A stretch of 64,000 bases of DNA from the NCBI RefSeq assembly GCF_038630985.1, contig NZ_CP152049.1, positions 252,001 through 316,000 on the forward strand, written 5' to 3'. Below are positions 22,783-62,866 of the stretch, one piece after another. Under the pieces are notes generated by a model. It ran no database searches. It was not told where the DNA came from and saw only the letters and a program-made list of their open reading frames with translations. The position numbers and the translations under genes are program-made. This DNA comes from Paenibacillus sp. FSL H8-0548 (GTDB taxonomy: Bacteria > Bacillota > Bacilli > Paenibacillales > Paenibacillaceae). Position 1 is the stretch's first letter. Each line of letters starts with the position of its first letter.

Positions 22783-23334
22783 TTAAATCAGATTTTGCGT
22801 ATGTTCAGCTTCAGTGTAAACGGTTATCAGTACAGTTGCTGGCTCCTCTCCAATGTTTTTTACCATATGGGGTGTGCAAGCGTTCCAGCTAAAGGAATCA
22901 CCCTCTTCAAATTCTGCGGCATCCTCCCCCTGCTCGGCATAGATTTTCCCTTTGATGACAACATGTACTTCTTCTCCCTCATGCGCATGTGGGGCTTTAC
23001 CTGTAGAAGCGCCAGGCGGCAGCTCGACGATCATCATCCGTACTTTTTTTGTTGAGCTCAGATGCTCTACCTTTAAATTTTCACTGCCGCTTTTTGTGAT
23101 CATGCGGTTTTCTTTACGCACGATATTCATGCGGTCCTCATTTTTTAGAAGCAAATAAGCTAATGGCACCTTCAACGTATTGGCTATACTTTCTAAGGTT
23201 GATATGGAGGGTGATGTTTTATTTGTTTCAACCTGGCTCATAAAGCCTTGAGATAAGCCTGTTTCTTCACAGATTTGAGCGATGGTCATATTTTTCCGTT
23301 TCCGAATTGCTCGTATGGTAGACCCGATGTCCAT
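22783..23334 (-). CDS. XRE-family regulator with cupin domain
   Basis: 183 residues, with GAGGAG 9 bases ahead of the ATG. Residues 5 to 62 are a lambda-repressor-type helix-turn-helix (IRAIRKRKNMTIAQICEETG, LSQGFMSQVETNKTSPSIST). Residues 105 to 178 form a cupin barrel (PPGASTGKAPHAHEGEEVHV, then EFEEGDSFSWNACTPHMVKN) with the His/Glu metal-ligand pattern. Such proteins sense a small ligand and often control polyamine, amino acid or phosphonate genes. The gene is divergent from doxX-like, with a long hairpin element between them. Confidence 0.87.
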   Translation of the reverse strand: MDIGSTIRAIRKRKNMTIAQICEETGLSQGFMSQVETNKTSPSISTLESIANTLKVPLAYLLLKNEDRMNIVRKENRMITKSGSENLKVEHLSSTKKVRMMIVELPPGASTGKAPHAHEGEEVHVVIKGKIYAEQGEDAAEFEEGDSFSWNACTPHMVKNIGEEPATVLITVYTEAEHTQNLI

Positions 23335-23543
23335 TCGTGTTCACTCCTCAAAATATTTGTAATACAGATTATAAATTAATAATAACAATTATTTTATTGA
23401 CAAGCTACTTTGATGTGCGTTAAATTTACTATACAAATTTTATATTTCTATTGGTTATATTAATAGGCGGAGAGAGGCCGAATTATAAATATTTCCATGA
23501 CTGAAATGTAAAAAATAAAATGAAAAAAGGGCTCCAAACCGAA

Positions 23544-23730
23544 ATCAGTGCTTGACCTGGGGAAGCTGAACTACCGCTGCGAGCAAGAGGGGGCTTCCGA
23601 TCGCTGTTGTTCCCAGATATTCTGTATTCACCCACCTAAGGGGTGATATCTGGGAACAAAGGCAAACGCTCCGCTTCTTCAGCCCCCTCTTACTCTCCTC
23701 TCAATCTACTTTAGGCTGTCAAGCACTGAT
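23544..23730. repeat. 187-base nested inverted-repeat (hairpin) element
   Basis: The ends ATCAGTGCTTGAC and GTCAAGCACTGAT are perfect 13-base inverted repeats. Further in, AAGAGGGGGCT faces AGCCCCCTCTT, and near the centre TGTTCCCAGATAT faces ATATCTGGGAACA, with TCACCC/GGGGTGA closing the loop. The element could fold almost end to end with several bulges. It contains no reading frame. It lies between the XRE-cupin gene and doxX-like, ending 7 bases before the first possible codon of the latter. Confidence 0.8.
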
Positions 23731-23767
23731 TATTAGGTTGACCCGAAAAAAGGTGGAGAAAGAAAAG

Positions 23768-24172
23768 ATGACGAAAATAGCAGCAGTATCGACATTAATG
23801 CGCGTAGTCTTGGGAATATTATTTTTAGCTCATGGAATTAGTAAATTGCAAATGGGACTAGGGAATGTTGAAGCTTGGTTTAGCTCGATGGGAGTTGCAG
23901 GATTTTTAGCTTATGTCGTAGCACTGCTTGAGCTGCTCGGTGGTTTCCTGCTTATTATTGGTCTATTTACACGTATTGTTTCAGCTATCTTCACGATTAT
24001 GCTCGCTGGCGCGATTGTTACCATGAAGCTTTCTGTGGGATTGCTTGGAAGTGCAGAAATGGCGGGGTACGAGCTGGATTTAGCTTTCATGTTGGTGTCT
24101 ATTTATTTAATTGTTTCAGAAACAACCCCATTATCGGTCGATCAAATACTTTTCAAAAAACGCAGCGCATAA
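23768..24172 (+). CDS. DoxX-family membrane protein
   Basis: 134 residues from the ATG at 23768 (GGTGGAGAAAG upstream); a TTG at 23738 would start right behind the hairpin element. Four membrane helices with DoxX hallmarks: RVVLGILFLAHGISKLQMGL, FLAYVVALLELLGGFLLIIG and RIVSAIFTIMLAGAIVTMKL. DoxX-like proteins take part in redox balance, often with a thiol or quinone partner. It appears monocistronic. The hairpin ahead of it would be in its leader if transcription starts upstream. Confidence 0.85.
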   Translation: MTKIAAVSTLMRVVLGILFLAHGISKLQMGLGNVEAWFSSMGVAGFLAYVVALLELLGGFLLIIGLFTRIVSAIFTIMLAGAIVTMKLSVGLLGSAEMAGYELDLAFMLVSIYLIVSETTPLSVDQILFKKRSA

Positions 24173-24328
24173 GTGGATTCATTGGATTCTACTGTGAATA
24201 GCCCCATTGTGTTATTGCCTGGTGATTTTACATTATGGCTCGCTAGCAGTCACTATATAGACAATATCTAATAGAGAATATAAAATAAGATCTAGAAAAT
24301 ATTGTTTGTTTACAAGGGGGTCGACTTA

Positions 24329-24721
24329 GTGGGAGATACCTATACAAATCATGGACAAGTTGGTGCTATGGGAAAAAAGGCTCGTGCCTCTAAAATTATT
24401 TTTAATCAAGGAAATACCGAGGCATTGAATAATATGAATGAGCAGCAGTTATTGCTGCTGAAAGATTTTATGAACAAGATTATTTCGGCAAATGCGACGG
24501 AGATAAAGACGGCTGAAGCCCTTACAGGTGCAGCGCATTTAGAAGAATTTATTGAAGCGTCCGAGTCAAAGGAAACCGAGAAGCAGGAAAACGCTTTGAG
24601 CAAATGGCATTCCTGGCTAGCCAGCCTGAAAGAGCCCTCTTTGAAGTTTTTAGCGATTACTGCTGATGTGGTTACGCTGAGTCTACCGTTATTAAAACTG
24701 CTAGGCCTATCTACGTTATAA
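24329..24721 (+). CDS. Small unrecognised protein with Gly-rich GQVGAMGK motif
   Basis: 130 residues from a GTG at 24329, with AGGGGG 8 bases before it; a TTG at 24302 has no such site. The N-terminus is GDTYTNHGQVGAMGKKARAS followed by KIIFNQ, a short Gly/Asn/Ala motif. A charged helical stretch follows (residues 35 to 100) with KWHSWLASLKEP, and the last 25 residues (LAITADVVTLSLPLLKLLGL) are hydrophobic and could enter the membrane. The next gene encodes a large protein whose C-terminal quarter has the same motif and the same helix pattern. I do not recognise the family. A signalling or defence-type pair is one possible reading, based only on the shared motif. Confidence 0.7.
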   Translation: MGDTYTNHGQVGAMGKKARASKIIFNQGNTEALNNMNEQQLLLLKDFMNKIISANATEIKTAEALTGAAHLEEFIEASESKETEKQENALSKWHSWLASLKEPSLKFLAITADVVTLSLPLLKLLGLSTL

Positions 24722-24723
24722 GC

Positions 24724-24753
24724 TTGAAAGTAATATCCAATACTAGATATAAT
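24724..24753 (+). promoter_or_regulatory. Sigma-A promoter of the large unrecognised gene
   Basis: TTGAAA and TATAAT, 18 bases apart, sit just behind the stop of the small gene. Between the promoter and the large gene, AAAGGAGG at 24798 is followed 7 bases later by a TTG and eight codons ending in TAG, which could be a leader peptide. Confidence 0.7.
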
Positions 24754-24870
24754 AGAAGTGACTATTCGTCGTTGACCGCTTACACCGTTGATAGGTGAAA
24801 GGAGGATAAGGTTTGTCCTGTCCTGATCAAGATGAATAGTTTTTTCTATTTGTAGAGGGGTAGATAAAAA

Positions 24871-26592
24871 GTGGCGCGTTCCGTCTATATCGTTCAATCG
24901 CAAATGATTTCGTTGGGTGAAGAACCCTTTAATAGCAGTGGTCGTCTCAGGAAGGCGTTTCAGCCCATGTATACAAGCCAGACTTGTTATAAAGATATGC
25001 GACTAGCGATATACGATTACTATCGTGTAAATGGCAGTCCATATACACAGGTGAAAAGGGAACGATACCCAGTTACCAACGCTCCTTTTATACGTCATAT
25101 GGGTCAGGTATGCTTTAATACAAAAAGAGCCTTTTACATTGATTCAGCCTATGATCGTGAAGATTTAGCATTATTAGTATCGAATAAAACAGATTACTGG
25201 AATCCATATGATCATTCTGACAATGTAGATGCCGCATCCTTACGTGATATTCCGTTTTTTGGCTACAATCCAGAGCTTGAAGATCAACGAATGAATTATT
25301 TATATTTTGAGCTGAGACCGTCTATGCCGATAGAGATGTTCCATAATGATAACTCTGTAGCCAAGGGTAAGCTATTCATTCATTTTTATCCAAGCGGATA
25401 CATTGGACTTCATCTGGCTACTGCTTTGAAAGGAACAGAGGCAAGGAGTGCGCGTGACATTCATGATTTAGTTAAAGAGACCCGCCCTGGACGGAAAGGA
25501 AATACTTGGGTATGGAAAAGTAAGCTTGGCGAATTAAAGTTAAATGAACTAATGAAACAAATCACAGCTAACATTGCGGTTTCTCTGTTTGAGGATGGTA
25601 CACAACTTAAAACGAATGATAAAGAGTGGAGCAGCTCTGTTTCTGTTGTTAGTGATGATAACATGGATGAGCTGACAGCCAGCATGTTTCATAGCTCCCC
25701 AACTATTCTAAATATGAATAGTAGGATTGGGGAAACGATCGTCAAAGAACAGCTGCTCGCTTCCCCACAAGGAAATTTATATTTATATAGCCCGCAGCGT
25801 AAACGGCAATCTGTGCTCCATTCTTTTTGGAGAATTTTGCATATTCATGAATTGGTGTTGCTAAAAAAACGGATTTATGAAGATTATTATGTCGTAACGA
25901 AAAGGCATAAGGAGCATTTAGCAGATATGAGCTTGGTTAAGCCTGAGGCAGGGGCACCTAAGGGTACCGCCTATAACCCTTTAGTCAAACGTTTTTTATC
26001 AGAGATGGATCACGTTGTTCAAACGGCCGAACCTTTTTATAAAGCTGCATACTCGGTTATTTGTAAAGGAATTGGATTTGATAGCCGCCGAGAACGACTT
26101 ATGAATAGCATCAAAGAGTGGGAGCAGGAGCTCCATAAAATAAATGACAGAGAGCGTTATGAAGAGCTTGCTCAATTGAGGAGTACTATCATACAAGGGG
26201 ATAGTTATACTAATTTCGGACAGGTAGGCGCTATGGGGAAAGAGGCTGTGGCAAGCGGCAATGTATTTAAGGTTTATCCTGATGATCATACGGTAGTCGA
26301 ATGGCAATCGGAATATGTTGAGCTGCTTGAAGAAGTGATCAAAGTAATTGGCAATAGGCCTGAAGAGCGGTATACAGATTGGCCGCAGGTTGTCATGAAT
26401 ATTCAAAATATCGTTGATGCCGCGAAAAAAGGGGATGAAGCTGCTCGGACGCTTGCAATTGATCATTGGAAAAAATGGCTTCAGTCCGAATGGAAGGATC
26501 AGAGGAAGGAATATGCCAAAGGTATTAGTCCAATTGTGGGTTCATCGGCCCTGCAAAAACTATTACATATTCATAAGAAAATTAAGTTTTGA
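24871..26592 (+). CDS. Large unrecognised protein with internal GQVGAMGK motif
   Basis: 573 residues from a GTG with GAGGGG about 10 bases upstream. No signal peptide or clear membrane helix. Residues 1 to 440 are mixed alpha/beta with no motif I recognise; aromatic residues are many (PFFGYNPELEDQRMNYLYFE, GKLFIHFYPSGYIGLHLATA). Near residue 445 the motif GDSYTNFGQVGAMGKEAVAS appears, matching the N-terminus of the small protein encoded upstream. Behind it comes a helical part with HWKKWLQSEWKDQ, comparable to KWHSWLASLKEP of the small protein. So its C-terminal 130 residues look like a second copy of that whole protein. No nuclease, kinase or NTPase signature was found. Confidence 0.75.
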   Translation: MARSVYIVQSQMISLGEEPFNSSGRLRKAFQPMYTSQTCYKDMRLAIYDYYRVNGSPYTQVKRERYPVTNAPFIRHMGQVCFNTKRAFYIDSAYDREDLALLVSNKTDYWNPYDHSDNVDAASLRDIPFFGYNPELEDQRMNYLYFELRPSMPIEMFHNDNSVAKGKLFIHFYPSGYIGLHLATALKGTEARSARDIHDLVKETRPGRKGNTWVWKSKLGELKLNELMKQITANIAVSLFEDGTQLKTNDKEWSSSVSVVSDDNMDELTASMFHSSPTILNMNSRIGETIVKEQLLASPQGNLYLYSPQRKRQSVLHSFWRILHIHELVLLKKRIYEDYYVVTKRHKEHLADMSLVKPEAGAPKGTAYNPLVKRFLSEMDHVVQTAEPFYKAAYSVICKGIGFDSRRERLMNSIKEWEQELHKINDRERYEELAQLRSTIIQGDSYTNFGQVGAMGKEAVASGNVFKVYPDDHTVVEWQSEYVELLEEVIKVIGNRPEERYTDWPQVVMNIQNIVDAAKKGDEAARTLAIDHWKKWLQSEWKDQRKEYAKGISPIVGSSALQKLLHIHKKIKF

Positions 26593-26645
26593 GAACATGA
26601 TTAATTGGGATTATGATGTGCCTATATGTAGTGTTTCGAAGCGCA

Positions 26646-26680
26646 ATAAATCCACGGCCGCATAGGGTTGTGGATTTTTT
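26646..26680 (+). terminator. Terminator after the two-gene locus
   Basis: AAATCCAC and GTGGATTT pair across 14 bases and run into Ts. Confidence 0.8.
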
Positions 26681-26728
26681 GGTGTGGATATACTTATACA
26701 GCATGGATAGATGCTAGCTTGAAGCTGA

Positions 26729-26863
26729 CTAGCGCTTTTTTTTCATTTTGTTCAATTTCATGAAAGTAAGGATAACAGCAACCATCATGACCAGAAAATA
26801 GGCAACAGCAAATATGAGCAATGGTCTGGCATATGTGGAGAAGGAAAAGAACAGCTCACTTGA
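26729..26863 (-). pseudogene. Possible 3' remnant of a membrane protein gene
   Basis: On the minus strand an open frame of 44 codons without start reads ELFFSFSTYARPLLIFAVAY, then LVMMVAVILTFMKLNKMKKK and a stop. One long hydrophobic helix followed by a run of lysines is typical for the end of a membrane protein. No upstream part is present. It may also be chance. Confidence 0.35.
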
Positions 26864-26895
26864 CTAAAAGCTAGAATGGGAATAAACTAATATTA

Positions 26896-26913
26896 GTTAA
26901 GAGATCTTAACTA
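26896..26913. promoter_or_regulatory. 18-base palindrome upstream of the MarR gene
   Basis: AGTTAAGAGATCTTAACT is its own reverse complement apart from none of its bases, and lies about 54 bases ahead of the MarR start. As MarR proteins bind 16 to 20 base palindromes and repress themselves, it is a good operator candidate. Confidence 0.55.
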
Positions 26914-26966
26914 TTAATATAACAACTAAATCTAATGCACTTAATTGCTAGCGATCGAGGTGTGAA

Positions 26967-27413
26967 ATGCTGGACAAGCAAAACCAATTGTCCAATTTGG
27001 TTAGCCATCATATGCTGGCGATAGTGGGCAATTTCTCCAAAATTCGTGATAGTGACTTACCGGCACCTCAATTTTATATTCTTCAGACGTTAGCTAAGCA
27101 AGACATGTTAACCAGCTCGTATTTTGCAAACATCATGGACGTGACGCTCTCTGCCATTACCAATTTAAGCAATAAGCTGGTACGGAAGGGCTACATTGAA
27201 CGTGTGGTTTCGGAGACGGACAGACGGCAGACTTATTTGAAAATAACGGAGCAGGGACGCGAGGTTGAGCAGCGCATGCTGGAGAGATATCGGTATCTGA
27301 CGGATGATTTATGGTCTGATTTTACGGATGAGGAGCTGGACCTGCTTATTGTTTCTTATGAAAAAATGATTGCGAAGATGGAGAGCAAGAGCAACGAGCA
27401 AAAATCAGAGTGA
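26967..27413 (+). CDS. MarR-family regulator
   Basis: 148 residues. The winged helix is at about residues 45 to 105 (SYFANIMDVTLSAITNLSNK, GYIERVVSETDRRQTYLKIT), the DRR wing being typical for MarR. The gene starts with GATCGAGGTG ahead of the ATG, lies 21 bases before a short-chain dehydrogenase gene and probably controls that operon. The region 26870 to 26940 holds the AT-rich AGTTAAGAGATCTTAACT, a perfect 18-base palindrome that could be its operator. Confidence 0.87.
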   Translation: MLDKQNQLSNLVSHHMLAIVGNFSKIRDSDLPAPQFYILQTLAKQDMLTSSYFANIMDVTLSAITNLSNKLVRKGYIERVVSETDRRQTYLKITEQGREVEQRMLERYRYLTDDLWSDFTDEELDLLIVSYEKMIAKMESKSNEQKSE

Positions 27414-27434
27414 AATTCATAGGAGGTTTTTCGC

Positions 27435-28187
27435 GTGGGAAGATTAGATAATAAAGTAGCTATTGTAACTGGCGCAGCAGGCGGTATGGGAAAAGCTGAT
27501 GCGCTCCTATTTGCCAAAGAAGGCGCGAAGGTCGTCATTACGGATCTGCAGGAAGAAAAATTGCAGGAGGTTGTGCGTGAGATCGAGGATATGGGCGGCG
27601 AGGCTCTCGGCATTAAGCATAATGTAGAGTCCGAAGAGGACTGGGTTCAAGTCGTAGAGCAAACGATCAGCAAATTTGGCCAAATTAATATCCTTGTGAA
27701 CAATGCCGGCATTTCTGATCCAACGCCATTCATGGACCAGACGGTTGAGCGCTGGGAAAAAACGATGTCGATTAACGTAACAAGCATTTTTCTTGGGCAA
27801 AAATACGTTATACCTCATATGATTACAGCTGGCGGCGGTTCTATTATAAACATCTCCTCTATTGCCGGTTTGACTGGAGGCAGCGGCGCAGGCCCGTACA
27901 CGGCGAGCAAAGGTGCTGTTCGAATGCTTACTAAGGCGACGGCTGTTGATTTTGCAAAGCATAACATTCGGGCTAATTCTATACACCCAGGCTATATCGA
28001 GACCCCAATGACTGTAGATCTTATGAAAGACGAGAAAATGAAGCAGTGGTTTCTTGCTCAAACACCGCTTCCGCGCCTTGGCAAAGCCGAGGACATCGCT
28101 AACGGTGTCTTGTTCCTAGCCTCGGATGAATCGTCTTATATTACAGGTATTGAACTGCCGATTGATGGCGGATATTACGCTAAATAA
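27435..28187 (+). CDS. Short-chain dehydrogenase/reductase (FabG-like)
   Basis: 250 residues from a GTG with AGGAGG 8 bases ahead. The NAD(P) loop TGAAGGMGK, NNAG (LVNNAGISDPTPF), the catalytic Ser in NISSIAGLTGG and the YTASKG pair are all present. The C-terminus ends with ITGIELPIDGGYYAK, the usual classical-SDR end. An Asp at the end of the second strand (VVITDLQ) favours NAD over NADP. It is co-transcribed with the MarR gene. The substrate is unknown; cyclopentanol-dehydrogenase-like enzymes are close in pattern. Confidence 0.9.
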   Translation: MGRLDNKVAIVTGAAGGMGKADALLFAKEGAKVVITDLQEEKLQEVVREIEDMGGEALGIKHNVESEEDWVQVVEQTISKFGQINILVNNAGISDPTPFMDQTVERWEKTMSINVTSIFLGQKYVIPHMITAGGGSIINISSIAGLTGGSGAGPYTASKGAVRMLTKATAVDFAKHNIRANSIHPGYIETPMTVDLMKDEKMKQWFLAQTPLPRLGKAEDIANGVLFLASDESSYITGIELPIDGGYYAK

Positions 28188-47827: not shown

Positions 47828-49674
47828 GGATTAGTGCAGCTGCTGTGAGGGTGCTGTCCATGCTGGGTCGAACCGTTCGAATACTCTTACCACGACGGAT
47901 CACCCTGCGGGGGAAGCTCATGCTTTCTTATTTGACATTGATTGTTTTGGCGACATTTCTGATTGGCTATTTCTCGTATATGAAGGCAACACAGATTGTG
48001 GAGGAGCAAGTCGGTGCGACATTTAAGCAAGCGCTGCATCAAGCTGCCATCAATATCACGTATAGGCTGGAGGAAGTAGAGAATGTATCAGAGCTTATTC
48101 TGACTCATTCACGGCTGCAGCCTATTCTGAAGAGGGCGCAATCAGGATACGGCGATACGACAACGGTACAACTGCTGAATGATTTTCAAGACTTGATCGG
48201 CATTATATCTAATCTAGAGAATAATCGGAATATTTACCGAATTCGGCTATTCGTTCCTGGTGATTCACTATATTCACGCGAGAACAATAACATCTTTAGA
48301 ATGCAGGATCTAGACAGTGAATTAATACAGCAAATAATGGATACGAATGGGCACATCTTGTGGAAGAGTACTTACGAGCAGGAATATTTGCCTTCGAACA
48401 AGCAAGAGGTCATTTCTTTGTTTCGTACCATTAATGACTTGCGCAATCTTAAAACGGTACTGGGCGTAGTTGCTATCGATATTCAGGAGGATGTGCTGAA
48501 CGGCGTTTTCAAGGATGTGAATTTTTCTGAAAACGGTGCCATCTTCGTCTATAACAATGGAGAGAGGATTACCTCCTTTACCTCCGCGGCGATTTCCGAT
48601 TACGCGGAAAGCGATGTAATGGATAAGATACTAAACGCGAGTCCCTCAGAGGAACTGCCTATTATTCAGCTAGGCGAGACGGACTACTTCACTATTTTCC
48701 AAGAGGTGGAGTACAGCGGCTGGGAGATCGCGGCCTTGGTTCCCGTTCAAGAAATTAGGGCCAAGAGCCAAATCATTGGAAAATTTACAGGTTTAATTGG
48801 TCTTCTTGTCATCTCCTTGGCAACGTTGTCAGCGGCTCTATTGGCTAATCAGTTGACTCGTGGTTTACGTACTCTAGTTGTGCATATGCAGGATGTTAGG
48901 CATGGGAGCTACGGTCAATTGATCCGAGTTACCGGAAACGATGAAATATCGGGATTGCAATCGCAATACAATAGTATGGTCTTAAGGATAAGAGAGCTGA
49001 TTGAGACCGTCTATCTCATGGGCGTACGAAAACAGGCAGCAGAGCTTACGGCATTGGAATCACAGATTAAGCCTCATTTTCTCTACAATACACTGGATAC
49101 CTTGAAGTGGATGGGGATGAAAATCAAGGCAGATCATATGGTTTCTCTCGTAGATTCATTGTCGAAATTTTTTCGGCTTGGCTTGAATCGTGGTCAGGAG
49201 CTGACAACTGTGGTGAATGAGCTAGGTCATGTCCAAGCCTTCATGAATATTCAGGATATTCGGTTTTCAGAAAAGCTTAGCTACTGGTATGAGGTAGACA
49301 GTGAATTGCTTAGTTGTCGAATTACGAAGTTAATTTTACAACCCATAGTGGAAAATGCGGTCTTGCATGGGATTCAGCAAAAGGAAGACCATTCTGGCAC
49401 AGTCATCGTGCGAGTATATGCGGACAATGCCCATTACGTATTCGATGTTATTGATGATGGAGTGGGCATGACCCGTAAGCAGCAAGCTATACTGCTGCAA
49501 GAGGATCGGGGCGGCGGATACGGTGCGAAAAATGTGCATCAACGGATTCGTCTGTATTACGGGGACAATTACGGAGTAGAATGCTTTAGCCGCTTGGGTA
49601 TTGGTACATGCATCCGTATTCGGCTGCCAATGGTTAAGAGTGAGCTTCATGGGAGTGGAAGGCTGCATCTTTAG
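47824..49674 (+). CDS. YesM-type sensor histidine kinase
   Basis: 616 residues from the ATG at 47824 that overlaps the regulator stop (ATGA); an ATG at 47860 with GAGGGTG before it is an alternative. Membrane helices lie at about 25 to 47 (LMLSYLTLIVLATFLIGYFS) and 320 to 342 (GLIGLLVISLATLSAALLAN), with an extracellular sensor between. Then come HAMP, the box SQIKPHFLYNTLDTLKWMGM and the ATPase loops VIDDGVGMTRKQ and GGYGAKNVHQRIRLYYG. It pairs with the short regulator. Confidence 0.9.
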   Translation: MRISAAAVRVLSMLGRTVRILLPRRITLRGKLMLSYLTLIVLATFLIGYFSYMKATQIVEEQVGATFKQALHQAAINITYRLEEVENVSELILTHSRLQPILKRAQSGYGDTTTVQLLNDFQDLIGIISNLENNRNIYRIRLFVPGDSLYSRENNNIFRMQDLDSELIQQIMDTNGHILWKSTYEQEYLPSNKQEVISLFRTINDLRNLKTVLGVVAIDIQEDVLNGVFKDVNFSENGAIFVYNNGERITSFTSAAISDYAESDVMDKILNASPSEELPIIQLGETDYFTIFQEVEYSGWEIAALVPVQEIRAKSQIIGKFTGLIGLLVISLATLSAALLANQLTRGLRTLVVHMQDVRHGSYGQLIRVTGNDEISGLQSQYNSMVLRIRELIETVYLMGVRKQAAELTALESQIKPHFLYNTLDTLKWMGMKIKADHMVSLVDSLSKFFRLGLNRGQELTTVVNELGHVQAFMNIQDIRFSEKLSYWYEVDSELLSCRITKLILQPIVENAVLHGIQQKEDHSGTVIVRVYADNAHYVFDVIDDGVGMTRKQQAILLQEDRGGGYGAKNVHQRIRLYYGDNYGVECFSRLGIGTCIRIRLPMVKSELHGSGRLHL

Positions 49675-49723
49675 TGCAAATGTAAATAATTGGCGGTATA
49701 CATTCAGAGGAGGGAATATTCAA

Positions 49724-50491
49724 ATGAATTTAAATCTAACGTATGAGCAACTGGAAAGCTACAAGCAAACGGGATATTTGGTACTGCGAAATGTGTTTAG
49801 CGAGCAAGAAGTACGCTTATGGCAAGCGGAATGCGACCGTCTTCAAAGCCTCGAAGAGTATGTGAACCCACTGAATCTTCGTGTTGCTTTTCGTCAGATA
49901 GCTAATGGAGAGAAAATGATTGAGAAGTTTGATCCTCTCCTGGACGTATCGCCGGTTTTTGCTAATCTCTTTCAGGATGAGCGGATTTTGGCACCGCTTC
50001 GAGATATTTATATGGATGAACCGCTTCTCTTCAAAGATAAATTAATCTTCAAACTACCTGGGAATGCTGGCTATACGATGCATCAGGATGCTGCTTTCTG
50101 GGATACGTTCCCGTATGAAGGACTGATCTCTGTCATGGTTGCCATTGATGGTGCCACTAAAATTAACGGCGGTTTGGAATTGTTTCCTGGGTATCATGAT
50201 AAGCTGCGTCAGAAAGAGCCGCTTCGTAATTTTGATGCGGAGGAAATTGCCGCCATTGATGCTTCTAAAGGGGTAATCTATGAGACGAATCCAGGGGATA
50301 TGATTCTATTCTCGTCCTTAACACCACATCAAAGTGGCTCAAATACATCGGATTCAAGCAGGAGACAGCTGTTTTTGACTTATTCTCCTACAAAAAATGG
50401 GCAGTTATATAAAGCGCATTATCAGCATTATATCCGCTATGCTACTCGCGGGGTTGACGCGACGACTCTAAACAAAAGCTACTTTAAGTAA
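49724..50491 (+). CDS. PhyH-type Fe(II)/2-oxoglutarate dioxygenase, copy 1
   Basis: 255 residues from the ATG at 49724 with GAGGAGGG before it; upstream in-frame codons overlap the kinase end. The jelly-roll iron site is complete: His120-x-Asp122 in YTMHQDAAFW and His202 in LTPHQSGSN, and an Arg for 2-oxoglutarate follows in SSRRQLFLTY. The family includes phytanoyl-CoA, ectoine, 2-aminoethylphosphonate and many antibiotic hydroxylases. A second copy lies at 52388, about two thirds identical. Both sit in a sugar-uptake locus, so hydroxylation or oxidative cleavage of an imported compound is inferred. Confidence 0.87.
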   Translation: MNLNLTYEQLESYKQTGYLVLRNVFSEQEVRLWQAECDRLQSLEEYVNPLNLRVAFRQIANGEKMIEKFDPLLDVSPVFANLFQDERILAPLRDIYMDEPLLFKDKLIFKLPGNAGYTMHQDAAFWDTFPYEGLISVMVAIDGATKINGGLELFPGYHDKLRQKEPLRNFDAEEIAAIDASKGVIYETNPGDMILFSSLTPHQSGSNTSDSSRRQLFLTYSPTKNGQLYKAHYQHYIRYATRGVDATTLNKSYFK

Positions 50492-52238: not shown

Positions 52239-52387
52239 CGCCTGGCGCCTCCTCTCAGGTTCGCACAAAAAAGGATATGAAAGTTGATAAGTTCATGCAT
52301 GTTCTGCTTGGTTTGCAAGTAGTATCATGATATCAGGAAATGACAAAAAACGATATGGATCTTAAAAAAAGAAGAGGATGTGTTAAG

Positions 52388-53161
52388 ATGAAAATCACAA
52401 AATTTCTTACTTCTGGTCAATTAAAAGATTTTAACGATAATGGCTATCTCGTACTGCGTAATGTCTTTACTGCCGCAGAGGCAGCCGTATGGCAGCAGGA
52501 ATGTATGCGCCTGCTCACTCTGGATGAGTATCTTGATCCGAATAATCTGCGCGTAAATTACCGTAATATCAATAATCGTTCGATTATTGAGAAGATTGAT
52601 CCTGTACAGGATCTTTCAGATGTATTTCATGCTCTAGAAAAGGATGAGCGCATACTGGCCCCGCTGCGTGATATCTATATGGATGAGCCTACGTTGTTTA
52701 AAGACAAACTCATCTACAAGCTTCCAGGTGTTACTGGGTATACCATGCATCAGGATGCCTCGTGGTGGCAGGGCTTCCCGTTAGAAGGATTAATTTCAGT
52801 TATGGTAGCCATCGATGGTGCGACAGAAGAAAATGGGGGTTTGGAGCTTTTTCCAGGCTATCATGATCGCTTTCGTTCAGCGAGAGGAGAATTTCGCAAT
52901 ATGAATGCGGAAGAAATTGCTGAGATTGATGCGTCCAAGGGCGAAATCGTCGAGACGGAGCCAGGCGATATTATTATCTTCCATTCCTTTACACCGCATC
53001 AAAGCGGCTCCAACACAGCTAGCACGAGCCGTCGTCAATTATACTTGACCTATTCTCCGGGGAAAAATGGTCAACTATATCATGCCCACTATCAACATTA
53101 TTGCCGATATGTAAGTAACCTTAGAGAAGAAAAAGGAAATACAGAGATGTATTTCAAATAA
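52388..53161 (+). CDS. PhyH-type Fe(II)/2-oxoglutarate dioxygenase, copy 2
   Basis: 257 residues from the ATG at 52388 (GAGGATGTG before it). The iron ligands are His121-x-Asp123 in YTMHQDASWW and His204 in FTPHQSGSN, with Arg in STSRRQLYLTY. Compared with copy 1 the core from DERILAPLRDIYMDEP to GGLELFPGYHD is nearly unchanged, while the substrate-side loop differs (AAFWDTFPYEG against ASWWQGFPLEG), so the two may act on related but different compounds. It is expressed apart from copy 1, behind a divergent AraC gene. Confidence 0.87.
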   Translation: MKITKFLTSGQLKDFNDNGYLVLRNVFTAAEAAVWQQECMRLLTLDEYLDPNNLRVNYRNINNRSIIEKIDPVQDLSDVFHALEKDERILAPLRDIYMDEPTLFKDKLIYKLPGVTGYTMHQDASWWQGFPLEGLISVMVAIDGATEENGGLELFPGYHDRFRSARGEFRNMNAEEIAEIDASKGEIVETEPGDIIIFHSFTPHQSGSNTASTSRRQLYLTYSPGKNGQLYHAHYQHYCRYVSNLREEKGNTEMYFK

Positions 53162-58638: not shown

Positions 58639-58761
58639 AAAGCGAGTCAGGCGTCGAAAGCAACTGTAGGATGGCTCATTGCATAAAGCTTTCCATTGCA
58701 CAATCCTTGATGGCGAAACCGTGTTTAATGAAGCACTTACCAAAGGGAGGCGTCAAATGAA

Positions 58762-60138
58762 ATGAAGAGAAAACCATCAGCAAAGCTTGGACTTATTTTT
58801 CTATTATGCTTCGGGATGCTGTTGTCAGCATGCTCATCGGGCAATAATGGCAGCGGCTCGACAACGAACGGCAACGCGGGCAACAAAGAAGCAGAAACGG
58901 GAAATAAGCCGCAGGAGCAGGTGAAGATTTCGTTTATGGGCCATGGCAGCCCGCAGGAGAAGGAAATATTCATGAAACTCATTAAATCCTATGAAACGAA
59001 ATACCCGAACGTAAAGGTTGAATATACAAGCGTGCCTCCGGCGGAATACAACCAAAAGCTGTCCACGCTGGTCGCATCAGGCAAAACGCCGGATGTATTC
59101 TACGTATCGGGCCCGCAATTTTATAAATTCGCCGAGGCAGGTACGATTCAGAACCTGCAGCCGTTTCTAGAAACGACCGAGCTGTTCCAAGAGGATAATG
59201 TATGGAAGCAGGCGCTCGACCGTTACCGCTTTGACGGCACGCAGCTCGGACAAGGCGATCTGTACGGCCTGCCGAAGGATGTAGGTCCATGGGCAATGGC
59301 GTACAACAAAACGATGTTCGAGGAAGCCGGAGTGGAATTGCCGCCGGCCGAGGTTGGCAAATGGACATGGGATAACTGGCTGGACGCAGCGAAGAAGCTG
59401 ACAAAAGATGATAACGGAGACGGCAAGATCGATATTTACGGCGGGGCAAACTTTACGCTTGAAGGAGCTGTATGGGCAAGCGGGGGAGACTTCATCGACT
59501 ACGGCACAGGCAAGGTAACCATCGATACCCCTGAATTCACAAACGCGATGCAGTGGGTAGCGGATCTTCGCTTGAAGCACAACGTAACCCCGTCGCCGGA
59601 GGACGAGAAAGCACTGAATGCTTATTCTCGTTTCGTGGCAGGCAAAGTAGGCATGTTCCCGATGGGTCCGTGGGATCAACCGGGCTTCTGGGATTTGCCG
59701 TTCGAATGGGATATTGCGGCATGGCCGGTAAATCCGGCAACAGGCAAAGCGGGAACCTGGGTGGGGTCGATGGGTTACTCGGTCTCGAGCAAATCGAAGC
59801 ATGCGCAGGAAGCATTTAACCTCGCCGCATTTCTGGCACTGGACGCGGAGGGCCAGAAGCAAAACTATGAGCTGGGCCAAGCGGTGCCTAACCTGATCGA
59901 TATGGCCAAAGGCGAGTTTGTGGCCTATGACAAAGCGCCGGCTAACCGAGAGGTGTTCTTGGACATTATCGAGGATTACGGGCATCCGCCAGTGGAATTC
60001 GGCTCGAAGGATACGAAATGGATCGATACGATGTGGCAAGAGGCAGGCAAGGTATGGGACGGCAGGATGACGGCAGCTGACTGGGCGAAGGAAATGCAGC
60101 CTAAGCTTCAGGAGCTGTATGACAAGGGCAACAAATAA
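58762..60138 (+). CDS. ABC transporter sugar-binding lipoprotein, copy 1
   Basis: 458 residues. GGGAGG lies 11 bases ahead; the ATG follows an overlapping two-codon frame ATGAAATGA at 58757. Lipobox LLSAC (Cys near residue 22), then a Ser/Asn/Gly-rich tether. The family 1 binding-protein fold shows KISFMGHGSPQEKEIFMKLI, KTPDVFYVSGPQFYKFAEAG and KWTWDNWLDAAKKLTKDDNG. DDNGDGKID from residue 216 looks like a calcium-binding loop. It has its own terminator and no permease gene, and its protein differs from copy 2 at residue 414 only (Gly for Ala). It may supply extra binding protein to the transporter encoded behind copy 2. Confidence 0.92.
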   Translation: MKRKPSAKLGLIFLLCFGMLLSACSSGNNGSGSTTNGNAGNKEAETGNKPQEQVKISFMGHGSPQEKEIFMKLIKSYETKYPNVKVEYTSVPPAEYNQKLSTLVASGKTPDVFYVSGPQFYKFAEAGTIQNLQPFLETTELFQEDNVWKQALDRYRFDGTQLGQGDLYGLPKDVGPWAMAYNKTMFEEAGVELPPAEVGKWTWDNWLDAAKKLTKDDNGDGKIDIYGGANFTLEGAVWASGGDFIDYGTGKVTIDTPEFTNAMQWVADLRLKHNVTPSPEDEKALNAYSRFVAGKVGMFPMGPWDQPGFWDLPFEWDIAAWPVNPATGKAGTWVGSMGYSVSSKSKHAQEAFNLAAFLALDAEGQKQNYELGQAVPNLIDMAKGEFVAYDKAPANREVFLDIIEDYGHPPVEFGSKDTKWIDTMWQEAGKVWDGRMTAADWAKEMQPKLQELYDKGNK

Positions 60139-61384: not shown

Positions 61385-61445
61385 TTTAGTATATAAACAT
61401 ATAACAATATAATTTATAATTAGTTTATTGATTTAAGCGCTTACA
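61385..61445 (+). promoter_or_regulatory. Operator and cre-like sites ahead of binding-protein copy 2
   Basis: TTTAGTATATAAAC (from 61385) resembles the box before copy 1 and before the regulator gene; TATAACAATATAA follows as in copy 1. ATTTAAGCGCTTACA (61431 to 61445) is a cre-like site fitting at 14 of 15 positions, 45 bases before the ATG. Confidence 0.6.
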
Positions 61446-61489
61446 TCTTGCGCCAAGCATGTTTAAATTACGAGGGAGGGTCAATTGAA

Positions 61490-62866
61490 ATGAAGAGAAA
61501 ACCATCGGCAAAGCTTGGACTTATTTTTCTATTATGCTTCGGGATGCTGTTGTCAGCATGCTCATCGGGCAATAATGGCAGCGGCTCGACAACGAACGGC
61601 AACGCGGGCAACAAAGAAGCAGAAACGGGAAATAAGCCGCAGGAGCAGGTGAAGATTTCGTTTATGGGCCATGGCAGCCCGCAGGAGAAGGAAATATTCA
61701 TGAAACTCATTAAATCCTATGAAACGAAATACCCGAACGTAAAGGTTGAATATACAAGCGTGCCTCCGGCGGAATACAACCAAAAGCTGTCCACGCTGGT
61801 CGCATCAGGCAAAACGCCGGATGTATTCTACGTATCGGGTCCGCAATTTTATAAATTCGCTGAGGCAGGTACGATTCAGAACCTGCAGCCGTTTCTAGAA
61901 ACGACCGAGCTGTTCCAAGAGGATAATGTATGGAAGCAGGCGCTCGACCGTTACCGCTTTGACGGCACGCAGCTCGGACAAGGCGATCTGTACGGCCTGC
62001 CGAAGGATGTAGGTCCATGGGCAATGGCGTACAACAAAACGATGTTCGAGGAAGCCGGAGTGGAATTGCCGCCGGCCGAGGTTGGCAAATGGACATGGGA
62101 TAACTGGCTGGACGCAGCGAAGAAGCTGACAAAAGATGATAACGGAGACGGCAAGATCGATATTTACGGCGGGGCAAACTTTACGCTTGAAGGAGCTGTA
62201 TGGGCAAGCGGGGGAGACTTCATCGACTACGGCACAGGCAAGGTAACCATCGATACCCCTGAATTCACAAACGCGATGCAGTGGGTAGCGGATCTTCGCT
62301 TGAAGCACAACGTAACCCCGTCGCCGGAGGACGAGAAAGCGCTGAATGCTTATTCTCGTTTCGTGGCAGGCAAAGTAGGCATGTTCCCGATGGGTCCGTG
62401 GGATCAACCGGGCTTCTGGGATTTGCCGTTCGAATGGGATATTGCGGCATGGCCGGTAAATCCAGCAACAGGAAAAGCGGGAACATGGGTGGGGTCGATG
62501 GGCTACTCGGTCTCGAGCAAATCGAAGCATGCGCAGGAAGCGTTTAACCTCGCTGCATTCCTGGCACTGGACGCGGAGGGCCAGAAGCAAAACTATGAGC
62601 TGGGCCAAGCGGTGCCTAACCTGATCGATATGGCCAAAGGTGAGTTTGTGGCTTATGACAAAGCGCCGGCTAACCGCGAGGTGTTCTTGGACATTATCGA
62701 GGATTACGGGCATCCGCCGGTGGAATTCGCCTCGAAGGATACGAAATGGATCGATACGATGTGGCAAGAGGCAGGCAAGGTATGGGACGGCAGGATGACG
62801 GCAGCCGACTGGGCGAAGGAAATGCAGCCTAAGCTTCAGGAGCTGTATGACAAGGGCAATAAATAA
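61490..62866 (+). CDS. ABC transporter sugar-binding lipoprotein, copy 2
   Basis: 458 residues from the ATG at 61490 with GAGGGAGGG before it; in-frame codons further upstream lack support because they precede that site. Signal, lipobox, fold and length are those of copy 1; by eye about 18 bases of 1377 differ and one residue (Ala414). No terminator follows: the permease gene comes 63 bases later, so this is the copy that belongs to the transporter operon. Confidence 0.93.
   Translation: MKRKPSAKLGLIFLLCFGMLLSACSSGNNGSGSTTNGNAGNKEAETGNKPQEQVKISFMGHGSPQEKEIFMKLIKSYETKYPNVKVEYTSVPPAEYNQKLSTLVASGKTPDVFYVSGPQFYKFAEAGTIQNLQPFLETTELFQEDNVWKQALDRYRFDGTQLGQGDLYGLPKDVGPWAMAYNKTMFEEAGVELPPAEVGKWTWDNWLDAAKKLTKDDNGDGKIDIYGGANFTLEGAVWASGGDFIDYGTGKVTIDTPEFTNAMQWVADLRLKHNVTPSPEDEKALNAYSRFVAGKVGMFPMGPWDQPGFWDLPFEWDIAAWPVNPATGKAGTWVGSMGYSVSSKSKHAQEAFNLAAFLALDAEGQKQNYELGQAVPNLIDMAKGEFVAYDKAPANREVFLDIIEDYGHPPVEFASKDTKWIDTMWQEAGKVWDGRMTAADWAKEMQPKLQELYDKGNK

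Follow-up and report, generated by a model that had tools for sequence, protein, structure and literature searches.

A two-gene locus in Paenibacillus sp. FSL H8-0548 whose proteins share a Gly/Asn/Ala motif and a helical tail: a candidate homotypic signalling pair

We analyzed a stretch of 64,000 nucleotides (hereafter the window), which represents bases 252001-316000 of the 7.35-Mb, single-contig genome of Paenibacillus sp. FSL H8-0548, and found that two adjacent genes on the forward strand encode proteins with homologous tails. These proteins carry the only two copies of a short Gly/Asn/Ala motif that stand above background in the genome, and selection has acted on this motif at the protein level. 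The motif pair is real and lies in two uncharacterized proteins. Judged by its sequences, the locus is not any of the systems described in PADLOC-DB 2.0.0, and a relative of amyloid signalling that is independent of NLR proteins is a plausible reading of it.

The two genes and their shared motif

Both open reading frames were located where the initial annotation had placed them. The small gene extends from a GTG codon at 24329 to 24721 on the forward strand, its open 130-codon frame being preceded by AAGGGGG, and the 130-aa product is composed of the motif, a helical part and a hydrophobic C-terminus. The motif occupies residues 2-27 (24332..24409) and starts at residue 2 with GDTYTNHGQVGAMGKKARASKIIFNQ. 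The hydrophobic stretch covers residues 103-130 (24635..24718) on the Kyte-Doolittle scale, with a best 19-residue mean of 1.83 from residue 107. The large gene, on the same strand, runs from 24871 (GTG) to 26592 and encodes 573 aa; its GTG start agrees with the M-L-R-S-V/L-Y beginning of its relatives. Its product consists of a core that belongs to a rare uncharacterized family (residues 1-442, 24871..26196; alignment of 13 members), the motif (residues 443-466, 26197..26268), which starts at residue 443 with GDSYTNFGQVGAMGKEAVASGNVF, and a tail that is helical in the structure model (residues 475-573, 26293..26589).

Promoter-like sites were found on the forward strand by consensus scan 5' of both the small gene (TAGACA-17-TAAAAT, 24258..24286, 10 of 12 bases) and the large gene (TTGAAA-18-TATAAT, 24724..24753, 11 of 12 bases), and both are weak because the region contains 10 such sites compared with 8.9 +/- 2.9 in shuffles. 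A terminator-like hairpin with a 12-pair stem and a subsequent T-rich stretch lies 3' of the large gene (26648..26677, forward strand). Between the two genes, at 24800-24839, an AGGAGG resembling a strong ribosome-binding site precedes a short frame (TTG start, eight codons, then a stop), which possibly represents a leader peptide or chance.

Sequence comparison revealed that the C-terminal 131 residues of the large protein are the part to which the small one is related; the local score of 112 was reached by none of 500 shuffles (33.7 +/- 5.4), so that the similarity goes beyond chance. The comparison with residues 1-440 of the large protein was no better than chance (score 32, reached by 276 of 500 shuffles). 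The previous suggestion that the small protein is a stand-alone copy of the C-terminal quarter of its neighbour is therefore supported by the alignment, in the sense of a stand-alone relative. When either protein was used as query within the genome, a single second match appeared, namely its neighbour (E 1.3e-6 at a limit of 0.001, and 3.8e-7 at a limit of 1). A profile search with the motif, which had been proposed as a check, separated the two adjacent genes far from everything else: across the 7.35 Mb, the motif-only profile, built from six sequences, had two strong hits (E 5.5e-18 in the large and 6.1e-16 in the small protein), the next matches being at E 0.40 and 2.3. The W-x-x-WL pair claimed for both proteins was also recovered (KWHSWL and HWKKWL), whereas the A-x-A-x4-F-x-Q ending that had been described for the motif was complete in the small protein only, the large one reading F-K-V. 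Without the motif, the helical part of the small protein was marginally similar to the large protein's tail (3 of 500 shuffles reached the score), and it was more similar to the tails of three relatives of the large protein, P0002-P0004 (none of 500 shuffles each).

The similarity was very unevenly distributed along the aligned tails, as 15 of 19 motif residues were identical compared with 18 of the remaining 107 (Fisher 2e-7). Codon counts between the two genes gave a pS of 0.77 and a pN of 0.14 for the first 19 residues of the motif, where pS is saturated and rests on 13 synonymous sites only, and a pS of 0.67 and a pN of 0.59 for the tail outside it. Since the motif combines saturated pS with low pN, its identity should be old and maintained on the protein, and it appears that selection at the protein level has kept the motif while the rest of the common tail drifted. 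The saturated synonymous sites ruled out that the motif identity stems from recent gene conversion or duplication.

The small protein also followed its neighbour in the details of the motif. It matched the large protein at 15 of 19 motif residues, and P0002-P0004 did so at 11 of 20 each, these three relatives keeping 49-52 of the 111 tail residues outside the motif. At the sites where the large protein differs from the residue fixed in P0002-P0004, which are close to one another and hence not independent, the small protein had the large protein's residue at all four motif sites and at two of 28 sites outside the motif (Fisher 4e-4). Matched motifs would be expected to behave in this way. Alternatively, the large protein may simply have kept ancestral residues; at the four motif sites a more distant relative, P0005, had the large protein's residue at two, that of P0002-P0004 at one and neither at one.

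Core family, fold and distribution of the motif and tail

A protein search with the large protein, in which 7995 candidates sharing most words were scored and a second, profile-based round added none, returned 11 sequences, one of them the large protein itself and one a close relative annotated as Paenibacillus frigoriresistens. Two further members, from Anaerocolumna and an uncultured Lachnospiraceae bacterium, came from a genome scan, giving 13 distinct members with the window's included. Their core alignment contained 28 invariant columns, and by inference a ligand or catalytic site would most likely lie at D138-Q139-R140-M141-N142 and H171. The family is rare: one genome was hit in each of three sets, namely 394 from the window's family, 398 from its class and 397 from the Anaerocolumna genome's family, each time a genome already known and with only a few first-look candidates scored per genome.

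The motif and helical tail were present in four of the 13 core members (the window's and P0002-P0004). P0005, from Bacillus cereus, carried a related motif, GDQYNNHGNVAAFGKNASAG, close to its C-terminus and lacked the helical tail, and eight members, six of them on contigs of 1.5-2.7 kb, had neither motif nor tail and terminated with a short stretch of amphipathic or hydrophobic character. Two Lachnospiraceae core genes (L003 and L004) ended at stop codons, and about 10 kb to each side of them revealed no motif or partner (best motif E 0.16). Thus, the motif/tail module is an add-on, because the core exists without both in eight of 13 members.

The structure model of the large protein was confident over most of the core (residues 1-442). 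In the motif region (residues 435-478) pLDDT was under 50, and at this low model confidence the motif looks as expected for a flexible stretch. The tail was modelled as helices at 475-494, 504-519, 523-556 and 559-569, with a pLDDT of about 64-79 up to about residue 540 and under 50 at 545-573. The core fold weakly recalls the cytoplasmic domain of CorA, without the channel; this fold was favoured by the first model and was not confirmed by the second. CorA membership by sequence was rejected, as PF01544 had no match in the 13 core members at E 1 and did match three CorA genes elsewhere in the same genome, against which hhalign gave the core a probability of 0.04. The large protein showed no C-terminal transmembrane pair, its highest 19-residue Kyte-Doolittle mean (1.08) being at residue 168.

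Neither protein matched a Pfam, NCBIfam or PADLOC family above cut-off, which agrees with the initial annotation of the locus as unrecognized, and PADLOC-DB 2.0.0 gave no match to either at E 1. Weak matches were scattered and included SspC of PADLOC in one of 13 core members (E 0.0053), Zn_ribbon_IFT122 in two of 13 (0.0034), and, in the tails, TipAS in two of five (0.0073) and TCAD2 in one of five (0.019); the term TCAD is absent from PMC7159879. Sequence searches of the PDB returned nothing for the large protein, its family profile or P0013 (a plasmid protein described below), and the tail profile yielded only weak matches there, the best being a designed helical protein (E 0.019). Foldseek found nothing among viral models at E 0.001. 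Nothing recognized as this pair was retrieved from full-text literature, whose coverage left out most subscription papers, supplements and preprints.

A search of 393 further genomes from the same family detected neither gene, the tail profile hit only its own genome among 394, and the protein search gave no relative of the small protein. Among 299 genomes of the phylum (own included), the motif profile matched 14 others at E 0.02-0.09, which we took as background. Searches of plasmids, phages and viral contigs with the large protein gave no match, nor did a tblastn search of plasmids with the small one at E 10, and no hit of the tail profile in viral contigs was confirmed. A degenerate DNA pattern of the motif had one match in viral contigs, opposite a 633-aa frame, and this was judged to be chance.

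The same layout of motif and helical tail was found on an unrelated protein. A probe with a consensus of motifs of this kind hit one plasmid gene at E 0.03 (0.01 with a variant probe), which encodes P0013 (WP_264694593.1, 425 aa) on a plasmid of Hymenobacter sp. YIM 151858-1. This protein has another N-terminal domain, then DQYNVNQAGAVGPNAQVHNSTFNQ (QAGAVGPNA motif), and then a helical-looking tail with a hydrophobic end. Its order of domain, motif (QAGAVGPNAQVHNSTFNQ) and helical tail is that of the large protein; its N-terminal part is by eye unrelated to the large core and appears TIR-like, with no Pfam match. Motif plus tail of the small protein aligned with P0013 at a score of 73, compared with 28.8 +/- 4.8 in shuffles (0 of 1000 reached it). 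The similarity was marginal for the part after the motif alone (37 of 1000), weak for the tail of the large protein (score 41, 20 of 1000) and at chance level for the tails of P0002-P0004 (109-320 of 1000). When 279 frames of the window were searched with the Hymenobacter tail by phmmer, the small protein ranked first (E 6e-5), the large one having E 2.1. In the reverse direction, P0013 was scored at E 3.9 by the window's motif profile and 7.6 by its tail profile, hhalign was negative, and the window's motif found nothing in plasmids at E 10 (tblastn). Neither the QAGAVGPNA pattern nor the Hymenobacter tail was found in viral contigs, nor the motif of the probe in phages. The Hymenobacter tail also matched (E 3e-3, 31%) a frame without annotation that adjoins transposase genes on plasmid AZO_p3 of Azospirillum lipoferum 4B (L054:2923-3252), in which the Hymenobacter-like tail is preceded by a different short Gly/Asn/Gln stretch. 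No second copy of the module was found on either plasmid. On these alignments, the evidence that motif and helical tail form a travelling module is moderate at best.

The locus lies between a DoxX-like and a MarR-like gene, and the 16 kb around it appeared by eye to be occupied by ordinary metabolic and regulatory genes, not by a defence island (alcohol dehydrogenase, MarR, methyltransferase, HD, SelO-like, XRE-cupin, SDR, PAS-GGDEF-EAL and sugar uptake). GC and GC3 of both genes were close to the range of their neighbours (GC3 of the large gene 0.37, compared with 0.38-0.55 in 13 neighbours). No tRNA or tandem repeat was found, and Rfam had no match in 23000-28000. A relative, G349, kept the downstream MarR (57%) and SDR (86%) genes (L034:6870-8092) and had different genes upstream; the 14 kb read there showed none of the remaining 13 of 15 queried genes, among them the small and large ones. 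Because only downstream genes are kept, the locus is at a variable junction. Elsewhere in the window, two near-identical open frames (58732-60135 and 61424-62863, 446 shared 7-residue words) are a recent local duplication, by eye lipoprotein-like and probably sugar-binding, and two further frames (49580-50488 and 52331-53158, 33 shared words) are related and by eye phytanoyl-CoA-dioxygenase-like.

A tentative sensor-and-partner scheme and its alternatives

Since the genome encodes two motif-bearing proteins, the simplest scheme is a sensor with its partner. The core (residues 1-442) would sense or integrate a cue, or would itself be the switch, and the large protein would display the motif on a flexible stretch behind this core, with the helical tail after it. 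When large proteins cluster, their motifs may align, most likely as a stacked beta-arch or an amyloid-type template, and the aligned motifs could recruit the small protein, which has motif and tail without a core, through its matching motif. The small protein, with its hydrophobic C-terminus, might then oligomerize and act, probably at the membrane. Physical contact, an amyloid nature, the direction of the signal, action at the membrane and a purpose in defence or cell death are what we infer. The two strong motif hits in adjacent genes, the conserved motif and its closeness to that of the neighbour, its low-confidence model, the add-on nature of the module, the layout of P0013 and the hydrophobic end of the small protein all speak for such a homotypic signalling pair. 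Against it speak the detection of both genes in one genome only, the absence of relatives of the small protein from the protein search, the failure of the window's own profiles to find the Hymenobacter protein, the 13 synonymous sites behind the motif's pS, and the N-terminal position of the motif in the small protein, which differs from that in the effectors of published pairs. On balance, we give the whole scheme a little under an even chance. A more specific version, in which a new class of receptor with a channel-less, possibly CorA-like core seeds a stand-alone executor made of motif and helix without any other domain, as an NLR-independent amyloid signalosome in a Bacillota bacterium, seems rather unlikely; if true, a motif and a hydrophobic tail would suffice for signalling and execution.

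The best-surviving alternative, itself unlikely, is that the small protein is a regulator that caps or poisons the assembly of the large one through the motif, in an antitoxin-like or dominant-negative manner, the large protein being the active component. It agrees with the fact that the module is the small protein's only domain, and the core may act alone, given that the eight relatives without motif or tail have a short end stretch of their own; however, its hydrophobic end suggests that the small protein is active in its own right. Motif-to-motif contact in some form is common to this alternative and to the sensor-and-partner scheme. Next in order, and also improbable, motif and tail could form an ordinary folded, non-amyloid complex that joins the two proteins, the motif serving for capping or docking, and the process would have nothing to do with defence or cell death. 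The medium confidence of the tail helices and the metabolic and regulatory appearance of the surrounding genes favour this explanation, yet it is the motif, modelled without confidence, and not the helices that is conserved between both proteins. Finally, it is very unlikely that the small gene is a functionless, decaying copy of the large gene's tail, despite its lack of relatives found, the 18/107 identity outside the motif and a pN there (0.59) close to pS (0.67), because in a dead copy the motif, whose pN stayed at 0.14 with saturated synonymous sites, would be expected to have decayed as well, and because the 130-codon frame is still open behind its AAGGGGG.

Comparison with known systems

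Dyrka et al. (2020) reportedly described pairs of NLR and Bell genes that carry bacterial amyloid signalling sequences (BASS1-10). The sensor-and-partner scheme has several parallels with such pairs, as the genes are adjacent, one short Gly/Asn/Gln/Ala-rich motif is common to both, and the partner has a helical part. However, no NLR signature (NB-ARC/NACHT plus repeats) was matched by Pfam in the large protein or the 13 members at E 1. In the published pairs, the effector bears the motif at its C-terminus, after the Bell domain (PMC8086366, PMC7889193, PMC9815663 and PMC12261475), whereas the motif of the small protein is N-terminal with no domain before it, no Bell domain was found by sequence search, and, unlike in those pairs, the motif of the large protein is C-terminal or central. 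The window's motif also showed no resemblance to the one BASS3 peptide printed in PMC8086366.

A second principle is that of the EADs, homotypic adaptor domains expected to recruit by homotypic contact (Kaur et al. 2021, PMC8195603). As with the EADs, a small, mostly helical module occurs here in more than one protein of one genome; in contrast to them, no NTPase core component was found, and one copy of the module stands alone rather than being fused to an effector domain. The large protein matched no NTPase family, and no third copy of the motif better than E 0.40 was found in the genome, so that the EAD principle is matched in part. As for the core, the fold it weakly recalls is that of the cytoplasmic domain of CorA magnesium channels, and CorA is also an effector of type III CRISPR (PMC10600005).

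The locus provides a concrete two-gene candidate with a natural control set, since some relatives of the core carry the motif and others lack it. Templating by the motif, if it occurs, would widen the range of known architectures and establish that a protein of nothing but motif and tail can be a partner. By analogy, the pair may work like the NLR/Bell amyloid pairs, as a plausible relative of them and not a member as defined.
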